Assembly (NCBI GenBank): GCA_035541755.1
Contig: DATKMQ010000174.1
Location: 1 to 64,000 of the forward strand
From: Syntrophorhabdaceae bacterium
GTDB taxonomy: Bacteria; Desulfobacterota; Syntrophorhabdia; Syntrophorhabdales; Syntrophorhabdaceae
Direction of reading: 5' to 3'
DNA length: 64,000 nt
Shown one piece after another: positions 3,221-38,331 of the stretch. A program made the translations under genes and the position numbers. The notes under the pieces are model-generated. The model was not told the origin of the DNA and made no database searches. It saw only the letters and a list, made by a program, of their open reading frames with translations. Each line of letters starts with the position of its first letter. Positions within the stretch are counted from its first letter, which is position 1.

Positions 3221-3239
3221 TCATACAAAGGAGATCACT

Positions 3240-4774: not shown

Positions 4775-4790
4775 CTCAGGAGGAACTCGA

Positions 4791-5897: not shown

Positions 5898-5931
5898 AGC
5901 GACTCCATCGAGCCGCCTCTAACTATTCTTC

Positions 5932-6591: not shown

Positions 6592-7565
6592 ACGATATCG
6601 AAAACAGCGTAATATTTGTAACAGGCGGTGCCGGCTTCGTGGGTTCTCACTTGGTTGAGGAACTTCTGCCCTATAAGCCGGCGAAGATCATCATCGTAGA
6701 TAATCTCTTCCGCGGTTCCATAGACAATATGAACCGCTTTCTCAATGATCCCCGCGTTCAATTCATTGAGGGAGATATCCGTGATACGCGGCTCATGGAG
6801 CGTTGTATACCGGGGACCGACTATATATTTCACCTGGCTGCCTTACGGATCAACGCCTGTGCGGCTAACCCTGCAGAAGGCTTCGAAGTCATGGCCGATG
6901 CAAGCTTTAAAATCATCGAGGCCGCCCGTAAACACGGCGTCAAGAAGCTCGTCTATTCGTCGAGCGCATCCGTCTACGGCCTGGCCCAGCATTTCCCTAC
7001 GCCGGAGAGCGACAATCCCTATGACAATAGGACCTTTTATGGCGCGGCCAAGCTCTTCGGCGAGCAGATACTGAGAAGCTATGCCTTTATGTACGGACTG
7101 AAATACGTGGCGCTCCGCTATTTTAACGTGTATGGACCGCGAATGGATACTGACGGAAAATATACGGAAGTGATGATCAAGTGGCTTGACTGTATACGGG
7201 AAAACAGAAATCCACTCATTTTCGGAGACGGCTCAACAAGCATGGACTTCGTCTATGTAAAGGACGTGGCAAAGGCAAACGTTGCGGCCCTTGTCTCCCA
7301 GGTCTTCGACGAGACCTTCAATATCGGATACGGACGTGAGACGAGCCTCAAGCAACTCCTCGAAATCCTCTTGAAAGTGAACAACTCATCCCTTAGGCCT
7401 GAGTTCCGCGATGAAAGCACCGTTAATCCCGTGAGCAGGCGCATCGCCGATATTACAAAAGCACGAAGCACCCTCGGTTTTAGCCCTGAGACTGCCCTCG
7501 AACCCGGCCTGAAACTCCTCTCGGATTGGTACTTCGAAAGACGCAACGGAGCCAGAGCAGCATGA
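6588..7565 (+). CDS. Extended SDR NAD-dependent sugar-nucleotide epimerase/dehydratase
   Basis: A 325-residue extended short-chain dehydrogenase/reductase. The cofactor loop TGGAGFVGSH, the active-site serine region YSSSASVYG and the catalytic YGAAK (Tyr-x-x-x-Lys) are intact, followed by the family segment ALRYFNVYGPR and the DFVYVKDVA motif. Such enzymes interconvert or dehydrate UDP-hexoses (GalE, WbpP and related groups). Both ends overlap neighbours by four bases (ATGA), so it is in a tightly coupled operon between an acyltransferase and an aminotransferase and probably supplies the keto or epimerised sugar for the latter. Specificity is inferred only. Confidence 0.85.
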   Translation: MNDIENSVIFVTGGAGFVGSHLVEELLPYKPAKIIIVDNLFRGSIDNMNRFLNDPRVQFIEGDIRDTRLMERCIPGTDYIFHLAALRINACAANPAEGFEVMADASFKIIEAARKHGVKKLVYSSSASVYGLAQHFPTPESDNPYDNRTFYGAAKLFGEQILRSYAFMYGLKYVALRYFNVYGPRMDTDGKYTEVMIKWLDCIRENRNPLIFGDGSTSMDFVYVKDVAKANVAALVSQVFDETFNIGYGRETSLKQLLEILLKVNNSSLRPEFRDESTVNPVSRRIADITKARSTLGFSPETALEPGLKLLSDWYFERRNGARAA

Positions 7566-8764
7566 TCCCTGTAGCTAAACCATATTTGACTTCCGATGAT
7601 GCGCAAAGCGCCTACGATACGATCCTTACCGGCTGGGTGACGCAGGGGCCGAAGGTACAAGAGTTCGAGGAACATTTTGCTGCCTACGTGGGTTCTCGCT
7701 ACGCCGTCGCCGTTTCGAGCTGTACCACAGCTCTGCATCTAGCTATGCTCGTTGTCGGTGTCGGTCCTGGCGATGAGGTGATCTGTCCATCGTTGAGCTA
7801 CATAGCGACAAGCAATTCTATTCTTTACACCGGGGCGCGACCCGTATTTGCCGAAGTACTTCCTGTCACGTACAACATAGATGCAGGTTACGCAGAGTCT
7901 CTGATTACGTCTCGAACCAAAGCGATTCTCATTGTTCACCAGATGGGTATGCCCGCAGATATCGATGCTTTCAAACGACTCTGTGAAACGTACAAACTCC
8001 ATCTCGTCGAGGATGCAGCCTGCGCTGTCGGCTCCACTTACAAGGGAAGAAAGATCGGCTGTCATTCGGACCTCGTCTGTTTCTCTTTTCACCCGCGGAA
8101 GGTCATCACCACCGGAGACGGGGGTATGATTACAACGTCGCGCAGAGATTATGCGGAACGCTTGCGACGGCTGAGACAACACGGTATGTCAGTGAGCGAT
8201 CGCGAGCGCCACGCCGCCAATAAGGTGGTCTTTGAGCAGCATCTGGAAGTCGGCTACAACTACCGTATGACCGATATCCAGGCAGCCGTGGGGATAAAAC
8301 AGCTCGAGAAGCTCGATTGGATAATCACGCAAAGAAGGAGAATAGCCGACCGTTACAACGAGGCCTTTGCAGAGATTGATTGCCTTACGGTCCCGAAGGA
8401 AGAGCCCGGCTTATTGAGCAACTATCAGTCCTATTGTCTCTACGTAAAAGAGACCGCCCCTATTTCTCGGAATGATCTTATGGCCTCTCTACTGGAAAAA
8501 GGTATTTCCACAAGACGCGGCATTATGACCTCCCATCGGGAACGGGCATATAAGGATATTTGCGCCGGTCTGAGACTTCCCGCTTCAGAAGGCCTGTCCG
8601 ACCGGAGCATCATCCTGCCCCTCTATGTCGGTATGACAGATGCCGATATCGATCAGGTGGTTCACTCTATCGGGCAGATTATGAAAGGGCACTGTCTACC
8701 TACAGAGGCGACCCCAGCTCCTCGCCTAACCCATGAGGGCCACCAGGGTTCGATCCCGAATTGA
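7562..8764 (+). CDS. DegT/DnrJ/EryC1/StrS family aminotransferase (second copy)
   Basis: A 400-residue PLP enzyme, distinct from the one at 4791. The ATG at 7562 overlaps the previous stop and puts the family start PVAKPYLTSDDAQ near the N-terminus. SSCTTALHLAM, EDAACAVGS and SFHPRKVITTGDGGM (Schiff-base lysine) are conserved. QGPKVQEFEEHFA is typical of the PseC/PglE/ArnB branch that aminates 4-keto sugars, which fits a pairing with the PglD-like acyltransferase two genes upstream. The C-terminus carries about 20 extra residues beyond the final family helix. The operon break after this gene is 110 bases long. Confidence 0.87.
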   Translation: MIPVAKPYLTSDDAQSAYDTILTGWVTQGPKVQEFEEHFAAYVGSRYAVAVSSCTTALHLAMLVVGVGPGDEVICPSLSYIATSNSILYTGARPVFAEVLPVTYNIDAGYAESLITSRTKAILIVHQMGMPADIDAFKRLCETYKLHLVEDAACAVGSTYKGRKIGCHSDLVCFSFHPRKVITTGDGGMITTSRRDYAERLRRLRQHGMSVSDRERHAANKVVFEQHLEVGYNYRMTDIQAAVGIKQLEKLDWIITQRRRIADRYNEAFAEIDCLTVPKEEPGLLSNYQSYCLYVKETAPISRNDLMASLLEKGISTRRGIMTSHRERAYKDICAGLRLPASEGLSDRSIILPLYVGMTDADIDQVVHSIGQIMKGHCLPTEATPAPRLTHEGHQGSIPN

Positions 8765-8874
8765 GCATACCGCGTCAGCCGTAGACAAAAATATCATACA
8801 CAAAATGCATAAAAAATCATGAATGTGCCTGTTTGCCGTGAGTATCACACTACGAGCAGGTATTGAGAGGACCG

Positions 8875-11800
8875 ATGAAGATACTCTATTGTTTTCCCGA
8901 AGCATCAAATCCCAACCATTACGCATATATCAACATTCGCTCTTCGCTGATTGAACAGGGCCATTCCACGGTGGATTTCGATTTTCTCGCCGCAACCGAA
9001 ACCCTGGGCCAGCAGGGCATGGTCAAGGAATTACGCGCCGTCATCGAACAAGAAAGACCGGACATCTTTCTTCACGGGATCGTGAGCGACGAGCTGCCCG
9101 TCTATTTTCTCGACGAGCTGCGCGACCGGGACGATATCCTAAGCATCGCATTTTTCTCGGACGACGACTGGAGAATTTACAATCATTCACTTCACTGGGT
9201 CGGCCATTACAACTTTGCAACCACGAACGATATCAATGCGCTGGAAATCTACCGCCGGTTCGGCTTTCATCATGTTTTTCATATGCAGTATGCCGCAAAT
9301 CCTCGGATATACTATCCGAGAAAGGTGCCAAAGATATATGACGTGACGTTCGTGGGACAGGCGTATCTCGGCAGGCCGCATATTGTCTATGAGCTCATGT
9401 CGCAGGGGATTGATGTGCGGGTGTGGGGTGCGGGCTGGGAGAAAATCCCCGAGCTCCAATCCGTAGCAGGCCCCTCCCTCCCCACGGACAAAATGATCGA
9501 AACATTCTGCGCCTCTAAGATTGTTCTCGGATTCGCCTGGTGCTCAGTTCCCACCGCAACCGGGCAACTCATGCCTCAGATAAAGGGGCGGACGTTCGAA
9601 TATCCGGCCTGTGAAGCGTTTCAGATTACTTATGAAGATGACCGTCTCAAGAACTACTTCAATTTGGGAACAGAAATAGCGACCTTCAGAGATGCAAACG
9701 ACCTTGCCACAAAAATAAGATACTACCTTGACCACGACCAAGAGCGTCAAGATATGGCCCATGCAGCATACAAACGAGTCCTCAAGGATCATACGTGGAA
9801 GCAGCGCTGGGACGCCTGCCTGCCCCTCATGGCCAAAGACAACCAGGACCTGCGGAGGGGCAAGACCTGGACCGTACCCGCGCAGTTGCAGCATGTGGAG
9901 AGCCCCGAGCGAAAGGACCCCCTCGTTTCCATAGTCTGTTACGTATATAACCGCGAGCGGTTCATTGCAGAGACCATCGAATCGGTGCTCAGTCAGACAT
10001 ACAGAAACATCGAATTTATCATACTCAACGATGGGTCCACGGACAATACGGAACGCATTATCAAAAGATATCTTTCCGATCCAAGAATCAAATATCACTA
10101 TCAGGAAAACATAGGAAAATCCCTGCTGAAATTTCATGAATTATTCAATCGTTCAGTCGGATTGTCTTCCGGCGCATATGTCTGCGCCATTGGAGCCGAC
10201 GATATATATCTGCCGGACAGAATAGAAAAACAAGTTCAAGAATTTCGGCGCCACCCGGAACTCGATATCAGCTTTTGTAACGCCCAGATCATCGACCATG
10301 CGGGCAATCCGACAGGGAACAATTTCCGTCATCCCAAAGCACTTACATTCAACAGATTCAATCTCCTCCGCCGTCTCTTCACCACGAATTTCATTGCTCA
10401 TCCGGCGGTTATGATCCGCCGACAGGCCCTCGACGAACACAATGGTTTTGAGACGGGCTATTGTTCCGATTTCCATTTCTGGCTCAAAACCGCGCAGCAT
10501 TTGAATTTCAAATACATGGATGAGGTGCTCTGGCGCTATAGGGTGCACGATGATGCGGGCACAGCAACGAAAAACAACGATCTCTGCGCCGACCAGACGT
10601 ATCAAGTCCTCGAGTTCTTCTATAACAAGTACTCTATCGAGGACTTTTACCCGGAAATCTCGGCCTGTTCCCAAAAATCAGAAGCCCTCTTCAGCGCCCA
10701 TCTTGATCTCGGCATTGATGCGCTTACCGCGCCCTTCGTCTATGCTCATCGTTTCGCCATACGGGAATTTCAAAAAGCCCTGTCAATACGGGAAGACTCC
10801 GTGGAGGCGCAAAATAACCTTGCCATAGCAATGGTGGTTGCAGGCGACAGACGTGAGGCCGCGGGCCTCTTCCGCGCCCTCGGTCATGGCGGTGACAATG
10901 GATCGGTACGGCACAACATAGATGTATTCGAGGCATCAAGCGCTGAGAACCCCCGCCTTCAAGACTACTGGATACTGGCGGAAGACACAAATAGTTCCGA
11001 GCTGAAACGCAATATCCTGCGCTTCGAACTGCGTGACGACCTCTTACCTGGATCAACCCTCACGATATCTGAGAGACCCGATGATACGGCCTCTATGCAC
11101 CGCCCGACCGTCAAAGGCCTCACATCCATCATCATAGCCACAACCGACCACGCAGACCCTCTCGAAGTTTGTCTTGATGCCCTTGAAAAGCATACCCGCG
11201 AGTCGCACGAGATTATCATAGTAGGAAACACGCCGTTCATAGAGTCGATTCGCAGTATGGAAAGACCAGACGACCCGGTGAAAAATCTTATTCTCCTCAG
11301 GAGCGAGAACCCCAATTACGTAGGCCTTATAAATCAGGGTATCGGCCGCTCAACAGGCGAGACAATAGTTGTCCTCAGAGCCGGAACCATTGTAACCGAT
11401 GGCTGGCTCACCGGTATGCTCCACTGCCTCCATCACACATCAAAGCCTGGTCTTGTCGGTCCCCTGACGAATTTTGGATCGCCGCCGCAGCTCGTGCCGC
11501 ATGCCTGCATGCAAGCTCAGGAGGATGCGTCCCGCTTCGCTTCGGAATTCAAGGGGCGTAACGAACACCGGCGCTCAAGGGTCGGAAATCTGTCCGGCTT
11601 CTGTCTCTCTTTCAGAAGGGACCTGATTTCTTCGATCGGCCTTCCCGACGATTCCTTAAGCGAGGGATCTTCCTGGGCCACAGACTACTGCCTGGCCGCC
11701 TCCGTTGCCGGATACACAAATATGTTAGCAGCCGACACCTACGTTCATCAAGAGACAAACCACGATACGGGAACAAGCAAAGCCGACCTCGGCAGGAAAT

Positions 11801-13887
11801 GGACAAAAGAGGCTATGCGACCGGACACGAACAAACGCCTCGGGGCGCTGAATGCAATAGAAGAAGCTCGCAAACTTTATGCAAGGGACAGGCTGAAAGA
11901 CGCGGTGGATGCACTCATGGAAGGGTTAAAACTCTCTTTTCAAGACAAGGATATCTATTTCTGCCTCGCCCGGATGCTGATCGATGCAGGATTGCACGGG
12001 GACGCCATTCAGGCTCTCGAATCCATGGCCAAAGAACATAAAGAAGACATCGAGTATCTCGAGCTATTTGGCTATGCCGCCGAAGCGATAGATCGCGACG
12101 AGGATGCGGAGGCGTGTGCGAGCAAAATGCTCTCAAAAGATGCAGCCTTAAGCCGGGCCATCAATCTTCAGGGCCTGATCGCGTACAAGAGAAGTCAAAA
12201 AAAGGACGCGGAAAACTTTTTCAGGCGAGCTGCGCAAGTCGACCCTGGCAACGGCGATCCATACAGGAACAGGGGGCTCTCCCAATGGTCCGAAGGCGAA
12301 AAGGAAGAAGGCTTATCCCTCATGGAAAAAGCATTCATTCTCGCGCCCGACAGCACGGACAACCGGAACTCCTACTATGCCGCCGTGTGCGATACGGGTT
12401 CCTATGGCAGGGCCGAGCCCGTTTTCATGGAAGCACAGGCGCTCTATCCTGAGAGCCGCGCAATCACGTTTCTTCTTATCGATTCCCTGGTCAAACAGGA
12501 GAAGTTCGGCGAGGCTATAGGCCAAATCGAGGCCGCCATCGTTCGTTTCGGCGCTGAGCAGGGACTCATTTCCGCCGGCCACGAAATCCGAAGGGTCTTA
12601 GGCCCTCTCGTCATCAACCCTGAGGACAAAGAGGCGCGAACCCTTTCCGTGTGCATGATCGCAAAGAATGAAGAAGACCACATGGCCCGATGCCTTGAAA
12701 GCCTGAAAGGCGTTGCCGGCGAAATCATTGTGGTCGACACCGGTTCCACAGATGAGACGAAACAGATCGCCCAAGTTTTCGGTGCACAGGTCTTCGATGT
12801 ACCCTGGACAAATGACTTCTCGGAAGCCCGCAACGTCTCCCTGTCTAAAGCAAAAGGACGGTGGATACTCGTGCATGATGCCGACGAAGTCATCTCAACC
12901 CAGGACTACAGCAAGCTTTTAGCCATCGTCGACCCGAAGGCGGAAAAGCCTGCGGCATACACGCTCATCACGAGGAACTATACGACAAACTCCTCGCTTC
13001 AGGGTTGGACGGCTAACAAAGGGGACTACCCCGACGAAGAAGCCGGCACCGGGTGGTTTCCGAGTCCAAAGGTAAGGCTCTTCACGAATGACCGCCGGGT
13101 TCGGTTTGAAAATCCCGTGCATGAGATCCTCGAACCTTCATTACAAAGGGCCGGCGTCAAGATAAAGCCCTGTGATATAGCCGTACATCACTACGGCAGG
13201 CTCAATGAAGAGAAGACCATGGCCAAGGCAGAGACCTACTATTTCCTCGGAAAAAAGAAACTCGACGCGACGGGCGGCGACCCGTCAGCCCTCAGGGAGC
13301 TCGCCATCCAGGCCGGGGAACTAGGAAGGCATGATGAGGCCTTAGAGCTCTGGAATCGCTACATTGCGTTTCAACCCGAGAGCCACGTGGCTCACTTCAA
13401 CATGTCCACATGCTATTTCGAAACGGGACGGTTCAAAGAGGCTCTCGATAGCGCCATTAAGGCGCTCACCCTTGACCCTCTGTCCAAGGAGTCCGTCCTC
13501 TGCTATGCCTCGGCGTCGCTTTGTGCAGGCTCCATTAAAGACGCAATCTCATCTTTAGAGAAACTTATGGAGAGGATTCCCGATTACCCCCCGGCCAAAG
13601 TGGTCCTTGCTGCAGCCTACTGTATGGGTGGTACACAAAGCGAGGGTCAAGACCATCTCAAGGAGATGAGGATGAGAGGATACGACTGTTCCACCGCTCT
13701 GTATTCCTTGTCGAAGAAGCTTATCTCGGCGGATAGGATGGAATCTGCCGTCAACCTGCTTGAGAACATGACTCAAGCGGGACAGTCACATCCGCGTACG
13801 GCGGAGCTTCTTAATACCTGCCGCTCTCTGGCCGACCTAACAGCGGCGGAGCATCATATGGCAGCGCAGACAAATGTGCGGGGTTGA
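8875..13887 (+). CDS. Giant multidomain glycosyltransferase (CgeB-like + three GT2-like modules + TPRs)
   Basis: A 1670-residue protein. Residues ~1-325 resemble CgeB-type glycosyltransferases (THDLH-like core HHVFHMQYAANPRIYYP, then DVTFVGQAYLGRPHIV). Three GT2-like modules follow: ~345-590 (LVSIVCYVYNRERFIAETIE, with IGADDIYLPDR as the acidic metal site), ~745-975 (TSIIIATTDHADPLEVCLDA, in which the usual DxD is replaced by RAGT, so it may be inactive) and ~1250-1450 (LSVCMIAKNEEDHMARCLES, with HDADEV). TPR-like helices lie at ~625-665, ~985-1215 and ~1470-1660. The start at 8875 is preferred to a TTG four codons upstream because GAGAGG sits before it and MKILYCFPEAS matches a Rossmann strand. 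The protein could build several linkages of a glycan on flagellin or another surface target; this is inference from context. Confidence 0.82.
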   Translation: MKILYCFPEASNPNHYAYINIRSSLIEQGHSTVDFDFLAATETLGQQGMVKELRAVIEQERPDIFLHGIVSDELPVYFLDELRDRDDILSIAFFSDDDWRIYNHSLHWVGHYNFATTNDINALEIYRRFGFHHVFHMQYAANPRIYYPRKVPKIYDVTFVGQAYLGRPHIVYELMSQGIDVRVWGAGWEKIPELQSVAGPSLPTDKMIETFCASKIVLGFAWCSVPTATGQLMPQIKGRTFEYPACEAFQITYEDDRLKNYFNLGTEIATFRDANDLATKIRYYLDHDQERQDMAHAAYKRVLKDHTWKQRWDACLPLMAKDNQDLRRGKTWTVPAQLQHVESPERKDPLVSIVCYVYNRERFIAETIESVLSQTYRNIEFIILNDGSTDNTERIIKRYLSDPRIKYHYQENIGKSLLKFHELFNRSVGLSSGAYVCAIGADDIYLPDRIEKQVQEFRRHPELDISFCNAQIIDHAGNPTGNNFRHPKALTFNRFNLLRRLFTTNFIAHPAVMIRRQALDEHNGFETGYCSDFHFWLKTAQHLNFKYMDEVLWRYRVHDDAGTATKNNDLCADQTYQVLEFFYNKYSIEDFYPEISACSQKSEALFSAHLDLGIDALTAPFVYAHRFAIREFQKALSIREDSVEAQNNLAIAMVVAGDRREAAGLFRALGHGGDNGSVRHNIDVFEASSAENPRLQDYWILAEDTNSSELKRNILRFELRDDLLPGSTLTISERPDDTASMHRPTVKGLTSIIIATTDHADPLEVCLDALEKHTRESHEIIIVGNTPFIESIRSMERPDDPVKNLILLRSENPNYVGLINQGIGRSTGETIVVLRAGTIVTDGWLTGMLHCLHHTSKPGLVGPLTNFGSPPQLVPHACMQAQEDASRFASEFKGRNEHRRSRVGNLSGFCLSFRRDLISSIGLPDDSLSEGSSWATDYCLAASVAGYTNMLAADTYVHQETNHDTGTSKADLGRKWTKEAMRPDTNKRLGALNAIEEARKLYARDRLKDAVDALMEGLKLSFQDKDIYFCLARMLIDAGLHGDAIQALESMAKEHKEDIEYLELFGYAAEAIDRDEDAEACASKMLSKDAALSRAINLQGLIAYKRSQKKDAENFFRRAAQVDPGNGDPYRNRGLSQWSEGEKEEGLSLMEKAFILAPDSTDNRNSYYAAVCDTGSYGRAEPVFMEAQALYPESRAITFLLIDSLVKQEKFGEAIGQIEAAIVRFGAEQGLISAGHEIRRVLGPLVINPEDKEARTLSVCMIAKNEEDHMARCLESLKGVAGEIIVVDTGSTDETKQIAQVFGAQVFDVPWTNDFSEARNVSLSKAKGRWILVHDADEVISTQDYSKLLAIVDPKAEKPAAYTLITRNYTTNSSLQGWTANKGDYPDEEAGTGWFPSPKVRLFTNDRRVRFENPVHEILEPSLQRAGVKIKPCDIAVHHYGRLNEEKTMAKAETYYFLGKKKLDATGGDPSALRELAIQAGELGRHDEALELWNRYIAFQPESHVAHFNMSTCYFETGRFKEALDSAIKALTLDPLSKESVLCYASASLCAGSIKDAISSLEKLMERIPDYPPAKVVLAAAYCMGGTQSEGQDHLKEMRMRGYDCSTALYSLSKKLISADRMESAVNLLENMTQAGQSHPRTAELLNTCRSLADLTAAEHHMAAQTNVRG

Positions 13888-13890
13888 GCT

Positions 13891-15516
13891 ATGGTGAATG
13901 TTGACAGGCCTCTCTGTAAAACCGAATCGGCGCCCGAAGGGCATTCGGCAGGTGCGAAAACCCGGGAAACTGCCGGTTGCGTGGACGAAGCCGAAGATCT
14001 CTTCAAGAAGTCCCTTGAGGCCGATCCTACGTCTGTCCCGCTCACACTCGATCTGGGGGATTTCTTCCTCAGACACGGGCGTCTCGATGAAGCCGAGCTC
14101 GTCTACCGTTACGCCCTTTCACTCGACCATAGGTCGTGCGCGGTATTGAATAATCTCGGAAATACTATGAAGCAGAAAGGCGATCACGCCGAAGCGGAAC
14201 GCTTCTACCGCGAGGCACTTACCGTGAATCCCCATCTTCTTGAAACACTCACTAACCTCGGTATCCTCTTTCTCAATCAAAAAAGGTTTGATGAGGCCGA
14301 GACATATTTGCGCCGCGCCACTGCGCTCAACCCTCGTTTCGGTTACGCCGCGCGTGAGTTGGGAAACCTTTCCATGGAGCAAGGTCGATACACTGAGGCT
14401 GAGGCCCTCTACCGATATGTCTTATCGGTTAACCCCGGGGACCATGACGCCGCCTTCAATCTCTCGTATGTTCTCCTTTTGCACGGCAAATATGAAGAGG
14501 GCTGGGACAGATATGAACTGCGTCTCAAAAGGGCCGATTTTCAATACCTTTGTGTTGACGGCAAGCGCCGGTTCGATCCCTCTTCAGCGAGCCAAACCGT
14601 GCTCGTCAGGGCTGAACAGGGGCTCGGCGATACCATACAATTCGTCAGGTTCTTATCCGAACTCAAGGGAAACGGCAGACGAATCATCTTCGAGTGCCAG
14701 CCACAGCTTGTGGACCTCTTAGGAAGCGTACAAGGGGTCGATACTATTGTCCCGAGAACGGTCGGGCTCAAAGCACCCGACATTGCCTTTGATGAGTACA
14801 TTCCGCTTCTCAGCCTGCCGGGCGTTTTCAAGATCACGGCCGAAACGATCCCGGCTCACGTGCCTTACGTCGCGGTCGATCAGGGCTTAATAGAGAAATG
14901 GAAAATGGCGCTCGGCTCTGAGGCGGGTCGTGAGAGGTTCAAAGTCGGCGTGGCCTGGGCGGGTAATCCCAAGAACACAGGCGACAAATTTCGCTCCCTC
15001 ACGCTCAAGAGCCTGACGCCTCTCTTCGGGGTAGATGGCGCCATCTTCTACAGCTTGCAGTATGGTATTGCCGTAGCGGAGATTGAAGCGCTTCCGACTT
15101 TTGCCAATTTGGTGGACTTTTCCCGGGACTTAAAAGCCTTCGCGGATACGGCCGCCTTTATTATGAACCTCGATCTTGTAATCACCGTGGACAGCGTCAT
15201 AGCCCATCTGGCTGGTGCGCTGGGTAAGCCGTGCTGGAATCTCATTCCTTATGTACCCGACTGGCGCTGGCTTATAGATCGGTCAGACAGCCCCTGGTAT
15301 CCTACCATGCGCCTCATCCGACAGAAGAGCCTTAATGACTGGGAAGAAACTTTGCAGGAAGTTACCTCTGAACTTGCTCATATCGTGCTTCGGAATAGAC
15401 CCGTTACATCTTTCGCCACATCTGAGAGACCAAACACCCCCAAAGAACAATCACCCCTTTTTCATACCCCGCAACACTCCCCTTCATTCTATCCAGACAT
15501 GCCCGTCCAGGCATAG
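13891..15516 (+). CDS. TPR protein with GT9-like C-terminal glycosyltransferase domain
   Basis: A 541-residue protein starting three bases after the giant glycosyltransferase stops. Residues ~30-205 hold about five TPRs (AVLNNLGNTMKQKGDHAEAER, LETLTNLGILFLNQKRFDEA). Residues ~225-500 resemble the heptosyltransferase-like (GT9/GT-B) domain often fused to TPRs in glycosylation islands: VRAEQGLGDTIQFVRFL, VGVAWAGNPKNTGDKFRSL and DLVITVDSVIAHLAGALGKP. The last ~50 residues are Ser/Pro/Thr-rich and low complexity. TPRs may dock onto the acceptor protein. It is the last gene of the plus-strand glycan island and converges on flaF with 50 bases between stops. Confidence 0.8.
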   Translation: MVNVDRPLCKTESAPEGHSAGAKTRETAGCVDEAEDLFKKSLEADPTSVPLTLDLGDFFLRHGRLDEAELVYRYALSLDHRSCAVLNNLGNTMKQKGDHAEAERFYREALTVNPHLLETLTNLGILFLNQKRFDEAETYLRRATALNPRFGYAARELGNLSMEQGRYTEAEALYRYVLSVNPGDHDAAFNLSYVLLLHGKYEEGWDRYELRLKRADFQYLCVDGKRRFDPSSASQTVLVRAEQGLGDTIQFVRFLSELKGNGRRIIFECQPQLVDLLGSVQGVDTIVPRTVGLKAPDIAFDEYIPLLSLPGVFKITAETIPAHVPYVAVDQGLIEKWKMALGSEAGRERFKVGVAWAGNPKNTGDKFRSLTLKSLTPLFGVDGAIFYSLQYGIAVAEIEALPTFANLVDFSRDLKAFADTAAFIMNLDLVITVDSVIAHLAGALGKPCWNLIPYVPDWRWLIDRSDSPWYPTMRLIRQKSLNDWEETLQEVTSELAHIVLRNRPVTSFATSERPNTPKEQSPLFHTPQHSPSFYPDMPVQA

Positions 15517-15566: not shown

Positions 15567-15944
15567 TTACGCCGGCGAGCCTCTGAGCCCGGCAGCAAGG
15601 TTGAGGTTTATGTTGATGACCGCGTTGAGCTTTTCGGGGGTGGGATCTTGCATGATCTCAACTATTCGTTTGTCAATAAAAATGCTCAGGCTCAAAATGT
15701 CGGCCTTGAGCTTAACCGGCAAAGGATTGTCCTCTTTGATCAGTTCACTCTGAAACACGGTCCACAGGCGCTGATTAAATGTGAGCGCAGCGTCAAGCCG
15801 TCTAAACCGATCCTTCTCGTTCCAGTGAAGTTGACAATCCTTGAGCAGGTGAGCCCCGTTCGTCAGGACCGACGCCTCAAGTTCCCTGCCTGAAGTTGTT
15901 GTGGTCTGTATCTTTCTATATGCATTGAGCCCTGGTCCTGGCAT
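15567..15944 (-). CDS. flaF: Flagellar biosynthesis regulator FlaF
   Basis: A 125-residue FlaF family protein. Recognised by LNAYRKIQTTTTSGRELEA at the N-terminus and the core FNQRLWTVFQSELIKEDNPL plus LSLSIFIDKRIVEIM. In Caulobacter and relatives FlaF is needed for flagellin synthesis or secretion and acts together with FlbT on flagellin expression. The start overlaps the end of flbT by 29 bases, so translation is coupled. It is the last gene of the flagellin operon. Finding it outside Alphaproteobacteria is notable. Confidence 0.9.
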   Translation of the reverse strand: MPGPGLNAYRKIQTTTTSGRELEASVLTNGAHLLKDCQLHWNEKDRFRRLDAALTFNQRLWTVFQSELIKEDNPLPVKLKADILSLSIFIDKRIVEIMQDPTPEKLNAVININLNLAAGLRGSPA

Positions 15945-16323
15945 GCTCCATTACCTCCTCTTCGTACTCGATGAGTTTTTTTGCCAGCTTGAGGGCTGTG
16001 TAGTATCTGCTATACAGGATGTGTTCGCTGATCTCCCCCAGTATGGCCGCTGTACTCGGCGCCGCCTGTACCACATCTTTTACGAGTGACCAGTAGAGAT
16101 TGTGTTTCTCCACAAGGTCCCTGTCATCGACGTACATAAGTTGAATCATGAAATAGATCCTTTTGCACGGCGTGACCGCGTCCCTCTCGCGGAGAATATC
16201 TTTATCTCGCAATACGGGAACGTTGTTCTCTATAATCAAGTCGGCTTTTGAGCCGCCGTTTGCCACTACTGCCCCCCCTATAATGGTCCGTTCCTGGGGC
16301 TTTAAGCTGATCTTTAGCGCCAT
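15916..16323 (-). CDS. flbT: Flagellin mRNA regulator FlbT
   Basis: A 135-residue FlbT family protein. The N-terminus MALKISLKPQERTIIGGAV and the central segment KRIYFMIQLMYVDDRD with the C-terminal helical stretch YYTALKLAKKLIEYEEEVM match the family over its usual length. In Caulobacter FlbT binds the 5' leader of flagellin mRNA and represses translation until the hook is complete; in some other Alphaproteobacteria it has a positive role. Here it sits two genes after flagellin, whose transcript has a strong hairpin next to the ribosome site (17790-17807), a plausible target. Confidence 0.92.
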   Translation of the reverse strand: MALKISLKPQERTIIGGAVVANGGSKADLIIENNVPVLRDKDILRERDAVTPCKRIYFMIQLMYVDDRDLVEKHNLYWSLVKDVVQAAPSTAAILGEISEHILYSRYYTALKLAKKLIEYEEEVMEHARTRAQCI

Positions 16324-16336
16324 AGCTTCTCTGTCC

Positions 16337-16549
16337 TCACTTCCTCAACTTGTATATGCCCTGTGTCTCGCCTATGGGAAAGAAAGGCGGAGAGTAAATT
16401 TTCGTCGCGTCCTGCGCCTTGTCTGTCTCTCCGAGGGACACGCTGTCTGCGCCATATGTCTGCGTCCCACTCGATTGCCGCTTTTTCACATCCCCGGTTA
16501 TGCTCATGACCGCGGACTTATCCAGGTTCCCAACCATTTCGATTACCAT
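16337..16549 (-). CDS. Unknown 70-residue protein between flagellin and flbT
   Basis: I do not recognise this gene. It would encode 70 residues, soluble, Ser/Thr/Gly/Lys-rich in the middle, with a distinctive C-terminal segment YSPPFFPIGETQGIYKLRK. No signal peptide or membrane segment is visible. A purine-rich GGGGTGGAAAG precedes the ATG; a second ATG lies four codons downstream. It lies 67 bases after flagellin and 13 bases before flbT on the same strand, so it is probably cotranscribed and may act with FlbT/FlaF. It could be a small flagellar regulator or filament-associated protein; this is only positional inference. Confidence 0.55.
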   Translation of the reverse strand: MVIEMVGNLDKSAVMSITGDVKKRQSSGTQTYGADSVSLGETDKAQDATKIYSPPFFPIGETQGIYKLRK

Positions 16550-16572
16550 CTTTCCACCCCCTTTGAGGCAAC

Positions 16573-16600
16573 CGGGGAAGGGGAACTATCCCCTCCCCCG
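16573..16600 (-). terminator. G/C-rich hairpin after flagellin stop (partial terminator or RNA-stabilising stem)
   Basis: On the minus strand a 12-bp stem (CGGGGGAGGGGA paired with TCCCCTTCCCCG, one G-U pair) closes on a TAGT loop, 17-44 bases after the flagellin stop. No U-run follows, so it is more likely a processing or 3'-protecting hairpin that makes flagellin mRNA more abundant than the downstream flbT-flaF part, or a leaky terminator. Confidence 0.6.
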
Positions 16601-16616
16601 TTATTCATTCTGCCTG

Positions 16617-17759
16617 CTACTGGAACAATTTCAAAACTGACTGGTTCGACTGGGATGCCAGACTCAATGCAGACGTACTCAGAGACTGCCTGGTCTGGAG
16701 GGCCAGCATGTTCGCGCCCTCTTCGTTTGTATCAGCGTTGACCAGAGAGTCAGCGCCCGTCTGGAGGGTGTTGGACACATCGGAAATCCACTGGTTACGA
16801 GCGTTCACGATGGCCAGGTTGCTGGACAGGCTCGAAGAGTTGACCCTCAAGCTTGTAAGGGCGTTGTTCATATTGTCGATATCCGCCTGAATCGTTGTCT
16901 CCGATGTCCAGGTTGCCGTTGCATTGAGACCAAGTCCCGAAGCCGAGGAGTCAAAACCCACGACTGACAGGGTATGGCTGTTGCCGAAACGAACCGTCAT
17001 GGTCTCGCTGTTCAACAGGTTCTTCCCGTTGTAGAACGCATCGGACTTCATGGTATTGAGCTGTGCCATCATCGTGTTATACTGGCTGACCTTAGATGCG
17101 AGCTCTACACCGCTTCCGATGGATGAAGCTGTTAAGTTGCTGGACAGTGCGGCCGCAAAACCGAGGTCAGTTGCCACCATGGTCATACCCGCCGTGGTCG
17201 GGTTGATGGTGATGGTGCTGTTCTGAACTGTAGCGGTCATCTTTGTCCTTGTCTCGGTCGTGAGGTTAATGGCCTGAGCAAGGGATATAGCTGCATCCGA
17301 TGTGGCGCCGCCAATGTAGAAGTTCGTGGCGCTTGCCGATGCAGCCGTGGTAACTGCCGTAAAGATTGAGTTGCCGATGGCGATGGTCTGACCGCTCGTC
17401 ATACCGGTAAGGTTGTTGATCGTCAGTGTCTGGTTGTATGCCGCAGAACCAAGTTTACTCATGGCGTCCTGGGCAACACCGATGGCGGAGTTGATCATCG
17501 TGGTGATGCTTGTAATTGCGTTATCGGCAGCCTTAATGGTCTGGATCGACTGGGATATGGCGTCTTTGTAATTGAGGAGGTCTGACGAGCGGCTCGTCAG
17601 CGACTGGGCTGTAAAATAGCTCACCGCGTTGTCGAGAGCTGAGTTCACTTTCTTGCCATTTGCCAATCTTTCCTGCGTTCTACCCATCAGGGTAACTGTT
17701 GACTGGAGGGCCAGAAGGTTCGCCCTCATGCTTGATGTTAAGGTAATATCTGATGACAT
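16617..17759 (-). CDS. fliC: Flagellin (alphaproteobacterial-type)
   Basis: The filament subunit, 380 residues. The N-terminal D0/D1 region (MSSDITLTSSMRANLLALQ, RTQERLANGKKVNSALDN, FFTAQSLTSR-like FTAQSLTSRSSDL, TIKAADNAITSI) and the C-terminal region (ADTNEEGANMLALQTRQSLS, ending SVLKLFQ) are complete. They look like flagellins of Rhodospirillales-type Alphaproteobacteria rather than the E. coli type. The central ~150 residues are Ser/Thr-rich (TTAASASATNFYIGG, TTAGMTMVATDLG) and would offer O-glycosylation sites. AAAGGAGAGATACC precedes the ATG, giving a strong ribosome site. A near-consensus sigma-28 promoter lies about 130 bases upstream. The operon continues with an unknown gene, flbT and flaF. 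Glycosylation is inferred from the flanking glycosyltransferases. Confidence 0.95.
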   Translation of the reverse strand: MSSDITLTSSMRANLLALQSTVTLMGRTQERLANGKKVNSALDNAVSYFTAQSLTSRSSDLLNYKDAISQSIQTIKAADNAITSITTMINSAIGVAQDAMSKLGSAAYNQTLTINNLTGMTSGQTIAIGNSIFTAVTTAASASATNFYIGGATSDAAISLAQAINLTTETRTKMTATVQNSTITINPTTAGMTMVATDLGFAAALSSNLTASSIGSGVELASKVSQYNTMMAQLNTMKSDAFYNGKNLLNSETMTVRFGNSHTLSVVGFDSSASGLGLNATATWTSETTIQADIDNMNNALTSLRVNSSSLSSNLAIVNARNQWISDVSNTLQTGADSLVNADTNEEGANMLALQTRQSLSTSALSLASQSNQSVLKLFQ

Positions 17760-17789
17760 GGTATCTCTCCTTTTCTAGGGATTTTTTCT

Positions 17790-17807
17790 CCCGGCGATCT
17801 CGCCGGG
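17790..17807 (-). promoter_or_regulatory. Flagellin mRNA 5' leader hairpin
   Basis: CCCGGCG and CGCCGGG form a perfect 7-bp G/C stem with an AGAT loop, ending about 30 bases before the flagellin ATG and about 16 bases before its Shine-Dalgarno. It lies within the leader predicted from the sigma-28 promoter. Caulobacter FlbT binds flagellin leader RNA, so this is a candidate FlbT target; the link is inference. Confidence 0.6.
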
Positions 17808-17889
17808 GGTACTACAATACGCGCTCGCCCACTCTAACGGTTGTTGCTTCACCTCCTTCGTGAGCATCAATTTTATCTTCATGAAGGTA

Positions 17890-18061: not shown

Positions 18062-20263
18062 ATGGGAAAACTGAAATCCACCCCATCTTTACAACGTATG
18101 CTCGATGAAGGGATAAAGCGTCACCAGGCCGGGCGGCTTCAAGACGCGCAAGAGATATATCGGAGCATACTGAACAAACAGCCCGGCCAGCCCGACGCAC
18201 TTCATCTCATGGGGGTCATCGCGCATCAGATCGGGCGGCACAGGGTTGCGGTAAACCTTATCGGAGAAGCCATTAAATCAAATCCGCAGGCGGCCCCCTT
18301 TCACAACAACATCGCTGAGGCCTTCAAGGCACTGGGAAGCCTTGATGAGGCAAGGCTTCATTACGAGAAGGCAATCGCCCTCAAGAAAGATTATTTCGAA
18401 GCTTACAACAACCTCGGCGTGGCCCTCCAGGAGAACGGCCATGTAATTGATGCCCTGCCCTATTATGAGAAAGCCCTCGCCTTGAATCCACGGTACGCCG
18501 AAGCGCATAACAACCTCGGCGTGTCGCTCAAAGAGCTCGGAAGATTCGACGAGGCTCTTACACATTTCCGCAACGCCGTTGAAATCAATCCTCGTTACGC
18601 CGAGGCGTATAATAATATGGGGATTACACTACTGGCAGCCGGTCTCACTGACCAGGCTATCGATCTTTTCAAGAAGGCCATTGAGCTTAAAGCGGACTAC
18701 GTCGACGCGTACAATAATATGGGTATCGCCATGAAAGACAAGGGACTGTTTGAAGAAGAACTTGACTTGTATCAGAAGGCGCTCTCCATAAAACCCGATT
18801 ATGCCGATGCGCATTATAATCTCGGCTGCGCTTTGCAGGAACACGGCTATATGGATGAGGCCCTGAAGGCTTTTGAAAACGCTTACACGCTCAAGCCACA
18901 GGACACGATCAAGGTAAAGATTGCCACCATGCTCCCGGTAATCCCGAGATCATCGCAGGAAATCATCGAATCGACAAAGCAATTCGGAGATAATATAGAT
19001 GCCCTTCTGAAAGCCCCTGTCAGCCTCGCTCATCCGGAACAGGAAACGGAAAATACGAACTTCTACCTTGCTTATAACGGTCTTAACGTCAAAGACCTCC
19101 AGATCAAGCTTGCGTCCTTCTATGAGCGGGCATGCCCGTCTCTTTTCTACACGGCGCCGCACTGTTCTGCCCGCATGAGGCCACATCATGGCAGGATCAA
19201 AATCGGGTTGATCTCACGGTTCTTCAAGAACCACACGGTAGGTCAATACATGATGGGCATTATAGCGGAACTCTCCAGGAAGGATTTTGAGGTCGTGCTC
19301 TTTACATTTGCGCACAAACCCGACAGGATCTCTCAATATATGGAGGAAAAAGCAGACAAAGTCATTAAGCTCACCACGAACCTTAACACAGCCCGCGGCC
19401 AGATCGCTGACGAGACCCTCGATCTGCTCCTGTATGCCGATATCGGCATGGAACCCTTCACGTATTTTCTCGCTTTTTCCCGGCTTGCCACCGTACAATA
19501 TGCCTTCTACGGCCATCCGGTCACAACCGGCATCAGAAATGTCGATTACTTTATCTCGCATGAAGACTGCGAGACAGAAGAAAGCGAGAGATACTACAGC
19601 GAGAAGCTTCTCCGGCTCACGAGTTCGGTAACATACACGTGCTATCACAGAGCGGAGTTTTCCCTTCCGCTTAAATCCCGCGCTGCTTTTGGTCTTGATG
19701 AAACTCACCATATCTATATCTGCCCGCAATCGCTTTTTAAGTTCCATCCCGACTTCGACCTCACTCTCGGTAATATCCTCCGCAATGACCCTGAAGGTAT
19801 TCTCCTCATCTTTCAGGGGAAAAGTCCTCATTGGACTGAGCTTCTCATTGAGCGTATGCAAAGGACCGCACCTGATGCGGCCGATCGTATCCTTGTCTCT
19901 CAACGCAGGCCTTACGACGAGTTCTTGAGCCTTATCGCCCTGGCCGATGTCATGCTCGATACGTTTCACTTTAGCGGCGGCAGCACCACCTTTGACGGCC
20001 TCGCCGTGGGCACACCGATCGTGACCCTGCCCGGACAATTCATGAGGGGACGCCAGACGTATAGCCTCTACAAACGAATGGGTGTGATGGACTGCGTTGC
20101 GGTCGACCCGGATGACTATACGCGCATCGCCGTGAAACTCGCCACGAACCCAGACTTTCGTGGAGCAATCAAGGAAAAGATTCTCGCACAGAGCCCACTC
20201 GTCTTTGATGATGTGACCATGGTCAGGGAGTTAGAGCGGCTGCTCCACACTACCGCTACTTAA
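18062..20263 (+). CDS. TPR-GT41 protein, OGT (O-GlcNAc transferase)-like
   Basis: A 733-residue protein with the layout of bacterial O-GlcNAc-transferase-like enzymes. Residues ~10-285 contain about eight canonical TPRs (AYNNLGVALQENGHVIDALP, AHNNLGVSLKELGRFDEALT, AYNNMGITLLAAG). Residues ~365-733 form a GT41-type GT-B catalytic region: IKIGLISRFFKNHTVG, a ILVSQRRPYDEFLSLIALAD segment and the donor-binding FHFSGGSTTFDGLAVGTPIV followed by TLPGQFMRGRQTYSLYKRMG. Such enzymes attach single sugars to Ser/Thr of target proteins. Its position next to flagellin makes flagellin the obvious candidate acceptor. The ATG lacks a visible Shine-Dalgarno; a second ATG at residue 13 is possible. Its last 8 bases overlap the end of flgL on the opposite strand. 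Confidence 0.85.
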   Translation: MGKLKSTPSLQRMLDEGIKRHQAGRLQDAQEIYRSILNKQPGQPDALHLMGVIAHQIGRHRVAVNLIGEAIKSNPQAAPFHNNIAEAFKALGSLDEARLHYEKAIALKKDYFEAYNNLGVALQENGHVIDALPYYEKALALNPRYAEAHNNLGVSLKELGRFDEALTHFRNAVEINPRYAEAYNNMGITLLAAGLTDQAIDLFKKAIELKADYVDAYNNMGIAMKDKGLFEEELDLYQKALSIKPDYADAHYNLGCALQEHGYMDEALKAFENAYTLKPQDTIKVKIATMLPVIPRSSQEIIESTKQFGDNIDALLKAPVSLAHPEQETENTNFYLAYNGLNVKDLQIKLASFYERACPSLFYTAPHCSARMRPHHGRIKIGLISRFFKNHTVGQYMMGIIAELSRKDFEVVLFTFAHKPDRISQYMEEKADKVIKLTTNLNTARGQIADETLDLLLYADIGMEPFTYFLAFSRLATVQYAFYGHPVTTGIRNVDYFISHEDCETEESERYYSEKLLRLTSSVTYTCYHRAEFSLPLKSRAAFGLDETHHIYICPQSLFKFHPDFDLTLGNILRNDPEGILLIFQGKSPHWTELLIERMQRTAPDAADRILVSQRRPYDEFLSLIALADVMLDTFHFSGGSTTFDGLAVGTPIVTLPGQFMRGRQTYSLYKRMGVMDCVAVDPDDYTRIAVKLATNPDFRGAIKEKILAQSPLVFDDVTMVRELERLLHTTAT

Positions 20264-22076
20264 GATAGTTGAGGATGTTGACGGAAAGGACCTTGGACAT
20301 AGTGGCAAGCAGGGCCTGATAGGTATTCATCAGCACGTTGAGTTGCACGGCGAGCTCGTTTTCGTCGGCGCCCGTCAGACTGGTCTGCATGGTTTCAATA
20401 TTGGCGTCCTTGGTTTTATTGTTGGTGGTCATGGTGGTTGCCTGGGTACCCTGAAACGCTATGACGGCCGCATTCTTGGTGGTCAATGCCCGCGCGCTCT
20501 CCACGTTTTGAATGTTTTTTGAAATCCAGGTGGTATCTCCCGCGCTAAAGGCGTCTTTGAAGTTCTTAAGCAGCTCGAAAATATTCAGGTCCTTCACCTG
20601 GAACGTATCAGCGGTTGTCAGTGTGTCTGTGCTCGCCGTGGAGAAGGCAAACTTTATACGGTTGTTCGTGGCATTTGCCACCCCCGAACCGTCTACGAAC
20701 ATACCCGCGTCGTAATCGCTCGTATCCGACGACCCGTTGCCCACAACAGAATCTGCCGTGTCAAAGCCAAGAACACCTGCCGCCGTGGAAAGCGGATTGG
20801 ACCAGTTGAGGGTGACCACGCTGCCGGTGTTGTTTGTAATGGAGAACTTCCGTGTGGTGCTATCGTAATTTACCGAGTAACCCGCGCCGAGCTGACTCGC
20901 GATCTGGGTGGCAAGACCCGCTCCGGTGTAAGTGCCATTGGCGAGTGTGACGGCCACTCCGTTACGGTAGAAGGTGTGATTCGTATTATCGATGGTAATA
21001 TCACCCGCCGTGGTGTCCGCACCCCCGGTGCTCACGGCAATGTCGGCCGACCATGTGGATCCTCCGTCTATGGAATACTCGTATGTGGCTCTCGCGGCCA
21101 CGGAGCCCGTGGTCGGACCGTCATTTGTGATTTTGATGAGAAAGGACTTTCTCCCTGTATCGAGGTCGCTCACTGCGGTTTGGCTAGATGCGACAACTGC
21201 GTTTACGTTATTAAAACCGAGCGTGCTCGCCGAGTTAGCGGTAGACCAGTTGAAGGTAGCATCACTCCCTGTATTGTTGGTTATGGCAAACTTCCTCGTC
21301 GTAGTATCAAAACCCACAGAATAATTCGCCCCGAGCTGCGTCTGAATTTGCTGAGCGAGACCACTTCCCGTATATACCCCGGATGCGAGCGTAAGGGTCA
21401 CGCCGTTTACAACCAGGGCATTGTTCGTACCGTCGATAACGTAGGCGAACTTGTCCGTATCCGAATAGACGTCTCCTGTATAAGCATTTCCAACGCTGCC
21501 ATAGGCAATCTTCGAGCTGCCATAGAATGCAGATCTTCCCGAAATCCCATACTGCGTTTTCTCTGACTTGTCTACGTAAATCTGCGTCACGTCTTCCGCG
21601 CTCTCAGGCGTATTGAAGCTCACAGAGTAGTCGTTATTCAATTGAAACGGCGCCACGTCGGACTGTTTTCCGCCGAAAATGTAGGCCCCGCCGAGTTTAG
21701 TATTGCCCACGGTGACGAGCTGTTCGATGATGCCCTTGACCTCTTCGCTCGCGGACTGTCGGACGCTCGCATCGGAAGACTCATAATTGTTTGCAAGCTG
21801 TTCCAGGTTGGACAACTGATCGCCGATACTCGAAAAGCATGTGCCGTACATGTTAACCACGAGCGTCTGGCTCTGCAGGTTGGTGGTGAACTGGCCTACG
21901 AGACTCCTCTCGGCATCGAGTTGCACATTGGTCGCAAATTTCGTGGGGTCGTCCGACGGTGTGTTCACATTCTTCTGTGAGGAGACCTTTATCTCAAGAT
22001 CGTTAAGTTGTTTACTGATCCTGGCTATACTTTGTTCGAGCCCCGCATACCTCATGCTGTCAGATATCCTGATCAT
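20256..22076 (-). CDS. flgL: Hook-filament junction protein FlgL, with internal duplication
   Basis: The hook-associated protein 3 that joins hook to filament, 606 residues, about twice the E. coli length. The N-terminal coiled region (MIRISDSMRYAGLEQSIARI, VNTPSDDPTKF, KLGGAYIFGGKQSDV) and C-terminal helix (LTGADENELAVQLNVLMNTY) are canonical. The extra length is in the middle: residues ~215-280 and ~363-428 are clear tandem copies (both contain a VTLA..G.YTG.GLA.QI..QLGA.YSV pattern followed by TTRKF.ITNNTGS). These copies would be surface-exposed domains. The start overlaps the flgK stop by four bases. Expression probably follows the sigma-28 promoter before flgM. Confidence 0.93.
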   Translation of the reverse strand: MIRISDSMRYAGLEQSIARISKQLNDLEIKVSSQKNVNTPSDDPTKFATNVQLDAERSLVGQFTTNLQSQTLVVNMYGTCFSSIGDQLSNLEQLANNYESSDASVRQSASEEVKGIIEQLVTVGNTKLGGAYIFGGKQSDVAPFQLNNDYSVSFNTPESAEDVTQIYVDKSEKTQYGISGRSAFYGSSKIAYGSVGNAYTGDVYSDTDKFAYVIDGTNNALVVNGVTLTLASGVYTGSGLAQQIQTQLGANYSVGFDTTTRKFAITNNTGSDATFNWSTANSASTLGFNNVNAVVASSQTAVSDLDTGRKSFLIKITNDGPTTGSVAARATYEYSIDGGSTWSADIAVSTGGADTTAGDITIDNTNHTFYRNGVAVTLANGTYTGAGLATQIASQLGAGYSVNYDSTTRKFSITNNTGSVVTLNWSNPLSTAAGVLGFDTADSVVGNGSSDTSDYDAGMFVDGSGVANATNNRIKFAFSTASTDTLTTADTFQVKDLNIFELLKNFKDAFSAGDTTWISKNIQNVESARALTTKNAAVIAFQGTQATTMTTNNKTKDANIETMQTSLTGADENELAVQLNVLMNTYQALLATMSKVLSVNILNYLK

Positions 22077-23482: not shown

Positions 23483-23914
23483 TTAGATAACCTTTGAGAA
23501 AAGTACGGGTCTTTGTTCCGGTTTTTTGCCATACGCAGGAGCAGTATTCAAAAAACCGATAATATGTTCTATGGATGACCGAACATGATCGATTGAAAAG
23601 GAAAGCAGTTTCATGTTCTTCTGAAGGGCAATCTTTATTTCCTTCATGGTGTGATGCATTTCTTTTGTCAATGCTTGCCAGGTCTGGCTATCCAATATTT
23701 CTTCTTTATCACTCAAGGATTCGAAGAGTTTTTCCTTTTCCATCTTCAGGTATTCGAGTTTTCTTAATATCTCTTCTTTCCTGTTGTTTTCCTGGATGAT
23801 GCCTTCAAGGGAGAAGGAAATGATCGCATCCCTCTCTCCCTGAAGAACTTTCAAGAACTCTTTCAGGGCTTTCTGCTCTTTCCGTGCAAGTTCTATGACG
23901 GGTTTGTCATTCAT
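23483..23914 (-). CDS. flgN: FlgN-type flagellar export chaperone
   Basis: A 143-residue, almost wholly helical, charged protein (KEQKALKEFLKVLQGERDAI, NRKEEILRKLEYLKMEKEKL). Length, helix pattern and place between flgM and flgK match FlgN, the cytoplasmic chaperone that keeps FlgK and FlgL export-competent. The start codon overlaps the flgM stop by one base (TAATG), implying coupled translation. Sequence identity in this family is low, so the assignment rests strongly on context. Confidence 0.82.
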   Translation of the reverse strand: MNDKPVIELARKEQKALKEFLKVLQGERDAIISFSLEGIIQENNRKEEILRKLEYLKMEKEKLFESLSDKEEILDSQTWQALTKEMHHTMKEIKIALQKNMKLLSFSIDHVRSSIEHIIGFLNTAPAYGKKPEQRPVLFSKVI

Positions 23915-24219
23915 TACAGCAACTCATCCAAAAGCTGACTTTTCAGCATGCTCTTTGCAACCAGTTCGCCTTTCACATTGTACGTCTGGTTCTGGATCGC
24001 CTCTTTCATAGCGTCCACTTTGTCCTGCCTCGCTGCGGGCTCAGCCTTTACCCGTTCTTTCAACTCACTGATTTCCTGTTTCCCGGAGGACAGCTCAACT
24101 TTGTCGAAAGCGCCTTGGTTGCCCTTCTTTTCCGTTGCCGGTTCCTTTTGCAGCTTACTCTGTGTAGACTTTACGAGACTATCCAGAAGACCGGTTTGCT
24201 TATCATTCTCTATCTTCAT
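23914..24219 (-). CDS. flgM: Anti-sigma-28 factor FlgM
   Basis: A 101-residue anti-sigma factor that holds FliA inactive until it is exported through the finished hook. The N-terminal half is polar and disordered-looking; FDKVELSSGKQEISELKERV followed by the C-terminal helix DAMKEAIQNQTYNVKGELVA is the FlgM sigma-binding signature. AAAAGGAGGTGGA is a strong ribosome site before the ATG. A near-perfect sigma-28 promoter lies 32 bases upstream within flgJ, so FlgM is made from a FliA-dependent promoter as in enteric bacteria. Confidence 0.92.
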   Translation of the reverse strand: MKIENDKQTGLLDSLVKSTQSKLQKEPATEKKGNQGAFDKVELSSGKQEISELKERVKAEPAARQDKVDAMKEAIQNQTYNVKGELVAKSMLKSQLLDELL

Positions 24220-38303: not shown

Positions 38304-38331
38304 TTATCGGATTCCCGTAAGGCAAACTTAA
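38304..38331 (-). promoter_or_regulatory. Probable sigma-28 promoter before HDOD-cheB-HEAT-cheR-cheY-cheA
   Basis: On the minus strand TTAAGTTT (7/8), 12 bases, TCCGATAA (7/8). The spacer is one base longer than the usual 11. It overlaps the fliA stop region; the predicted start is about nine bases before the HDOD ATG, leaving an AGGA ribosome site in the leader. It would boost che genes late in assembly. Confidence 0.6.

Follow-up and report, generated by a model that had tools for sequence, protein, structure and literature searches.

A flagellin, FlbT and FlaF module with a conserved double-hairpin mRNA leader in a Syntrophorhabdus-like deltaproteobacterium

FlbT and FlaF are familiar chiefly from Alphaproteobacteria. 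In Caulobacter, FlbT is reported to interact with the flagellin 5'UTR (PMC3930126), FlaF is a secretion chaperone (PMC3930126, PMC7591256) and the flagellins are RpoN-dependent with FliA being unused (PMC3930126). A 2015 review treats FlbT as an RNA-binding regulator whose recognition sequence and mechanism are unknown (PMC4347634). The CsrA-FliW control of flaA in Campylobacter jejuni, to which FlbT/FlaF have already been suggested as an analogue, involves two tandem leader hairpins of a sigma-28 gene, the second of which lies over the ribosome-binding site (PMC4894983).

The locus analysed here lies in a stretch of 64,000 nucleotides (the window). It resembles the Caulobacter system in having the same protein families beside the same flagellin type and differs from it in the promoter (RpoN in Caulobacter, sigma-28 here) and in gene order (flaF-flbT in Caulobacter, flbT-flaF here). 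The hosts of such loci, unlike the Alphaproteobacteria, are Desulfobacterota and others with FliA/FlgM. The original FlbT paper, by Anderson and Gober in 2000 (cited in PMC3930126), may cover part of the Caulobacter leader. The window shares the tandem hairpins, the covered ribosome-binding site and sigma-28 with the CsrA-FliW leader, but has an AGAA(N)-type in place of an ANGGA loop, and CsrA and FliW were not found in the genomes with FlbT (FlbT+). The flg-Rhizobiales RNA motif (RF01736), whose name marks it as a flagellar candidate RNA of Rhizobiales (PMC2864571), had no match in the window leader or in seven loci; no Rfam family reached its gathering threshold in seven loci and the leader element was without a match up to an E-value of 5. 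The sigma-28 promoters and the tandem-hairpin leader element of these flagellin genes, with its link to FlbT, are new here.

The annotated features are listed in Table 1. The preliminary description of this DNA had placed flagellin, FlbT and FlaF within 15567-17759, which is borne out by Pfam and NCBIfam matches; all three genes lie on the minus strand, and both flagellin ends that it quoted (KKVNSALDN and ADTNEEGANMLALQTRQSLS) are present in the translation. The sigma-54/sigma-28 cascade that it read in the cluster is represented by a sigma-28-type factor, flgM and two sigma-54 activators, and its pairing of FlgM/FliA with FlbT/FlaF on one filament gene agrees with the finding of a sigma-28-like promoter (17916-17890) together with an FlbT-type leader. 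It overlooked the absence of FliS, FliD, FliW and CsrA and the conserved RNA element. FlgL, FlgK and FlgM are encoded upstream of flagellin-flbT-flaF in the same direction, FlgL being unusually long (606 aa) with repeats in its central part. The host is a Syntrophorhabdus-like deltaproteobacterium with a FliA/FlgM-type flagellar cluster; its genome (a 3.85-Mb draft) has one copy of flbT, for which the best matches among named relatives are from Syntrophorhabdus and Deltaproteobacteria MAGs. FlbT covers the full PF07378 model (positions 1-125 of 125) with 145.5 bits against a gathering cut-off of 27 and stays below both NCBIfam equivalog cut-offs (PRK12791, 123.4 of 153 bits; PRK00794, 105.9 of 125); judged by these scores, it is a member of the FlbT family outside the equivalog range. 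FlaF exceeds its cut-offs (PF07309, 111.2 against 23.6 bits; PRK12794, 121.1 against 91 bits), and the flagellin comes nearest to the NCBIfam flagellin subfamilies PRK12688 and PRK14708, far under their cut-offs (189.6 of 614 bits for PRK12688, the best match).

Table 1. Features annotated in the window.
Feature	Position	Strand	Remarks
Two large TPR/glycosyltransferase genes facing flaF	8863-13887, 13891-15516	+	
flaF	15567-15944	-	Pfam PF07309 3.4e-32; overlaps flbT; FliS-like fold in model
flbT	15916-16323	-	Pfam PF07378 1e-42
70-aa ORF, possible remnant of flagellin-like gene	16337-16549	-	only PPFFPIG motif kept
Flagellin, FlbT-associated type	16617-17759	-	Flagellin_N and Flagellin_C (Pfam)
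Proposed FlbT-responsive RNA element (model R1)	17757-17809	-	56.5 bits, E 1.6e-16
Hairpin 2, CCU-AGAAA-AGG	17769-17779	-	Shine-Dalgarno in 3' arm
Hairpin 1, CCCGGCG-AGAU-CGCCGGG	17790-17807	-	
Flagellin mRNA leader, -10 box to ATG	17760-17889	-	about 130 nt
Upstream GGAGG	17852-17856	-	about 95 nt before ATG; 48/64 long leaders
Predicted sigma-28 promoter of flagellin gene, TTAAGTTT-N11-ATCGATAA	17890-17916	-	0/60 shuffles reach window score
TPR and glycosyltransferase-41-like protein, divergent from flagellin	18062-20263	+	
FlgL	20256-22076	-	606 aa
flgM, anti-sigma-28	23914-24219	-	Pfam PF04316 9e-16
Sigma-28-type factor (fliA)	38328-39068	-	sigma-70 regions 2, 3, 4
Sigma-54 activators	58577-59923 and 61164-62633		

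A sigma-28 site was found upstream of 92 of the 96 related flagellins, with a median of 136 nt from the -10 box to the ATG. Sites were scored by a weighted match to TAAAGTTT-N11-GCCGATAA and counted if no more than three of 60 shuffles reached the score; this shuffle-controlled match was used instead of a strict regular expression, which caught only 16 of 100. The promoter predicted from the window sequence matches the sigma-28 consensus at 13 of 16 positions with exact spacing. Further downstream, 48 of the 64 long leaders have a GGAGG (7.2 expected), placed 89-134 nt ahead of the ATG, and this Shine-Dalgarno-like sequence is a possible ribosome standby site.

The end of the leader next to the ATG contains two hairpins. 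Hairpin 1, with a stem of at least four pairs and an AGAA or AGAU cap, was found in 69 of 86 distinct leaders compared with 0.012 per dinucleotide-shuffled leader, and AGAA is far ahead of all 256 tetramers as the loop. Hairpin 2 lies about 10 nt downstream of hairpin 1 and holds the Shine-Dalgarno sequence in 68 of 83 leaders, where 0.62 were expected. All seven pairs of hairpin 1 vary on both sides in the model-aligned set, with a covariation of 0.403 against 0.146 in shuffled and at most 0.13 in slid alignments, and a smaller hairpin-selected set agrees; as one of these alignments was chosen for the hairpin and the other fitted to it, both lean towards the structure, and the shuffle test of the AGAA hairpin carries less bias. 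From 29 leaders a covariance model (R1) was made, which gave about 95 matches at E<0.01 when run on both strands of 98 FlbT+ loci (1.65 Mb); almost every one of them ends at a flagellin start. Its single match in the window (17757-17809) is also the best of the whole genome. Among the 70 genomes scanned, the best match lies at a flagellin in all 19 with FlbT (28.4 to 60 bits), while in genomes without FlbT (FlbT-), with a background of up to 34.4 bits, R1 scores at flagellins were found only in G231, which carries the leader element at two FlbT-type flagellins and in which FlbT was not found.

The loop of hairpin 1 differs according to the presence of FlbT. AGA loops occur in 77 of 86 FlbT+ leaders and in one of 19 FlbT- leaders, whereas a GGA-containing loop is present in nine and 14 of them respectively; the AGAA hairpin was found in none of the 19 FlbT- leaders. 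The GGA loops of the FlbT- relatives lie mostly 34-42 nt before the ATG, in the position of hairpin 1 and in a layout like that of CsrA on Campylobacter flaA (PMC4894983). With an AGAU loop, and with CsrA and FliW not found in the genome, the window leader does not classify as a CsrA-type leader. Three FlbT+ leaders have AGGA in place of the AGAA loop, and two FlbT- loci from the window's family (L246 and L247) have a hairpin in the usual place with an AUGAU-type loop, not GGA, together with a diverged CsrA. In Alphaproteobacteria, 14 of the 17 flagellin leaders adjoining FlbT contain an AGAA(N) hairpin (1.6% expected for each) and three are without it; these 17 are not independent cases as several come from related species.

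Other readings of the leader were tried and rejected. Hairpin 1 is not followed by a U-tract, and its distance from the ATG is about 35-43 nt in almost every relative, which argues against a terminator. An ORF of 33-40 codons starting just behind the promoter was observed in the window (17780-17884, minus strand) and in leaders L069, L071-L075 and L077. In the Syntrophorhabdus group it stops at a UAG in the hairpin 2 loop, possibly as a leader peptide or by chance. A leader peptide that stops at the UAG within CCUAGAA was rejected as a general feature because only 16 of 49 leaders have an ORF with an ATG start; ORFs ending at this sequence are long mainly in the Syntrophorhabdus group.

FlbT was found in 19 of 297 genomes sampled across the phylum, FlhA being present in 188 of them, and a named genome collection yielded at least 520 candidate stretches. 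Named records with FlbT include Geobacter sp. OR-1, Geotalea, Geomonas, Desulfosarcina, Desulfatitalea and Nitrospirota MAGs; this set was picked by similarity to the window, many of the genomes are drafts and the Alphaproteobacteria come from plasmids only. Nearly all of the non-alphaproteobacterial loci have the order flagellin-flbT-flaF with flbT and flaF overlapping, and the alphaproteobacterial plasmid loci that hold all three genes have the order flagellin-flaF-flbT. On plasmid pCMU02 of Methylorubrum extorquens CM4 (L220, 22.6 kb) a flagellin between two FlbT genes forms a minimal mobile set, a gene content which indicates that such sets can be mobile.

The relation of FlbT to the usual filament helpers was analysed by family score cut-offs in 70 flagellated genomes, 19 of them FlbT+ and 51 FlbT-. 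FliS was above its cut-off in none of the former and 41 of the latter, and FliD, FliW and CsrA each in none and 40; one FliS and one FliD score below the cut-offs in FlbT+ genomes are left out of these counts. No genome of the 70 had both filament systems above cut-off. In 11 tree-independent pairs on the FlhA tree the second gene, where it differed, was always opposite to FlbT (median p of 0.016 for FliS, FliW and CsrA, and 0.031 for FliD). About ten flagellated FlbT- genomes are also without FliS, FliD or both, and most FlbT- genomes lacking FliS come from families in which FlbT+ members occur too. Six genomes with FlhA (G057, G070, G141, G168, G184 and G259) have neither FlbT nor FliS, FliD, FliW or CsrA, for which draft gaps, lost filaments or a third system are the alternatives. 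As judged from gene content, the FlbT/FlaF gene set replaces the usual FliS/FliD/FliW/CsrA helpers, and the presence of one or the other would provide a genomic rule that predicts the control type of a flagellum.

The module transfer suggested in the preliminary description stands in part. FlhA tracks the host family and flagellin and FlbT do not, so the flagellin module does depart from the host lineage; a recent import from Alphaproteobacteria is unsupported, and the arrangement is not a single case but recurs across the phylum and in Nitrospirota. The window FlhA clusters with FlbT- members of its own family (SH-aLRT 99), the presence of FlbT requires at least 11 changes on the FlhA tree, and forcing all FlbT+ FlhAs into one clade was rejected (p-AU 3e-140). 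The flagellin tree has a 100/100 split between FlbT-associated flagellins, those of Alphaproteobacteria included, and FlbT- flagellins, so that the family members G097, G201 and G224 carry a clearly different flagellin type. Together with the exclusion of FliS, FliD, FliW and CsrA, these incongruent trees argue that the export and translation-control set moved between lineages as one unit while the basal body stayed resident. It is rather unlikely, but deserves some weight, that there was no transfer and that a phylum ancestor had both filament systems, of which lineages dropped one or the other. The module is scattered over many families, the FlbT tree is poorly resolved, and forcing the two FlbT+ family members together on the FlhA tree was rejected only marginally (p-AU 0.031), all of which would fit such losses. 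Repeated loss would, however, be expected to leave some genomes with both systems, and none of the 70 holds both above cut-off. In addition, the window FlbT belongs to a 12-row Syntrophorhabdus-like clade (support 98) that includes G047, whose FlbT and flagellin nest in this group and whose FlhA belongs to another family (f11), a placement for which contamination is a possible source as G047 is a draft MAG with 5% contamination. A recent horizontal import of flagellin-FlbT-FlaF from an alphaproteobacterium is very improbable. When the flagellin tree is rooted on the FlbT- (classical) flagellins, the non-alphaproteobacterial FlbT flagellins fall within alphaproteobacterial diversity, so an old origin there is conceivable, and small flagellin-FlbT sets are present on alphaproteobacterial plasmids. 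Against a recent event, the window FlbT is 70-76% identical to Desulfobacterota relatives and at most about 40% to the alphaproteobacterial copies (plasmids only), the order of flaF and flbT is reversed between the groups, sigma-28 promoters extend across the whole non-alphaproteobacterial set, and the non-alphaproteobacterial FlbTs stay together on one side of the tree, the exception being two Methylobacteriaceae rows with long branches.

The AGAA double hairpin, from its distribution, is probably the landing site of FlbT and is proposed as a candidate. A partner is not named by strong hairpin conservation, GGAGG is conserved as well, about 95 nt before the ATG, and RNA recognition by FlbT is given as unknown in PMC4347634. 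The module could therefore be real with its hairpins read by some other factor (a nuclease, a ribosomal component or another RNA-binding protein are candidates) or stabilising the mRNA, and with FlbT bound elsewhere in the leader. Because the leader always shares a transcription neighbourhood with FlbT, their association could also be exaggerated by linkage. We consider such a reader unlikely, since the element follows FlbT across families, is lost or re-keyed to GGA loops beside CsrA/FliW, and occurs also in Alphaproteobacteria, where FlbT acts on the flagellin 5'UTR (PMC3930126). Found beside FlbT in two major bacterial groups, this conserved and covarying element provides a concrete candidate binding site.

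FlaF was predicted as four helices (pLDDT 86), and the best fold matches of the model are FliS structures (TM 0.60-0.69, probability 1.00) with weak E-values of 0.06 and up. The two differ in family (PF07309 and PF02561) and never co-occur in the 70 genomes; with this FliS-like predicted fold and FliS not found in the genome, FlaF is proposed as a candidate flagellin export chaperone. The predicted FlbT model has five short strands and then four helices (pLDDT 92.6), and no PDB relative was found by sequence or Foldseek. Its first 45 residues are colinear with CsrA (hhalign P 0.004 in a single comparison, probability only 8.5), and one of 300 column shuffles aligned equally well; the similarity is a suggestive lead to a CsrA-like domain and falls short of establishing FlbT as a CsrA homologue. 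In 69 of 89 loci the space between flagellin and flbT holds an ORF, the long forms of which are diverged paralogues of flagellin (hhalign P 1.9e-7; Flagellin_N 2.4e-7 for L100). This previously undescribed flagellin-like family has the motif IVKNYPPFPxGSEER (for example L109 9376-9996 and L100 8754-9629), and in the window the ORF has shrunk to 70 aa. Because FlbT binds the flagellin paralogue FljJ in Caulobacter (PMC7591256), the intervening protein is a candidate FlbT partner.

We favour, with a probability of about 0.7, a self-contained filament module that would do the job of FliS, FliD, FliW and CsrA, exchanged between lineages on a resident hook-basal body and with FlbT and the leader acting as a checkpoint. 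The genes, the promoter, the leader element with its FlbT link, the absence of FliS, FliD, FliW and CsrA, the incongruent trees and the FliS-like FlaF model were computed here. The module would consist of the flagellin with its mRNA leader, FlbT as RNA regulator, FlaF as export chaperone and, in most relatives, the flagellin-like partner gene. On completion of the hook FlgM would exit and sigma-28 would transcribe fliC, after which the leader would serve as a second checkpoint. FlbT, probably with cytoplasmic flagellin or the flagellin-like partner, would bind the two AGAA-capped hairpins, one of them with the Shine-Dalgarno sequence, and would block translation or expose the mRNA to decay. 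As FlaF takes subunits to export the partner would be depleted and FlbT released, so that flagellin output would equal the export rate. Function is throughout deduced from sequence, including the binding of FlbT to the hairpins, the sign of its effect and the role of the partner. The filament, its export chaperone and its translational control would then be one exchangeable package on a resident motor. As a more tentative extension, which may well prove wrong, the AGAA two-hairpin code read by FlbT could be common to Alphaproteobacteria and Desulfobacterota and be the equivalent of the CsrA-GGA code, with which it would be interchangeable, such that a module swap keeps the layout and changes the loop key; the five-stranded FlbT N-terminus would be perhaps diverged CsrA-like and FlaF a diverged FliS.

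Three TPR/glycosyltransferase genes lie around the flagellin gene. At least one homologue of the three window proteins was found in 53 of the 65 long FlbT+ loci (only FlbT+ loci were surveyed), and the product divergent from flagellin is a candidate flagellin glycosyltransferase by analogy with FlmG of Caulobacter (PMC7591256). The region 3108-15516 also contains sugar-nucleotide genes, namely two DegT aminotransferases, an oxidoreductase and epimerase-like and acetyltransferase-like ORFs, and together with 18062-20263 on the plus strand around the flagellin it looks like a flagellin glycosylation island.
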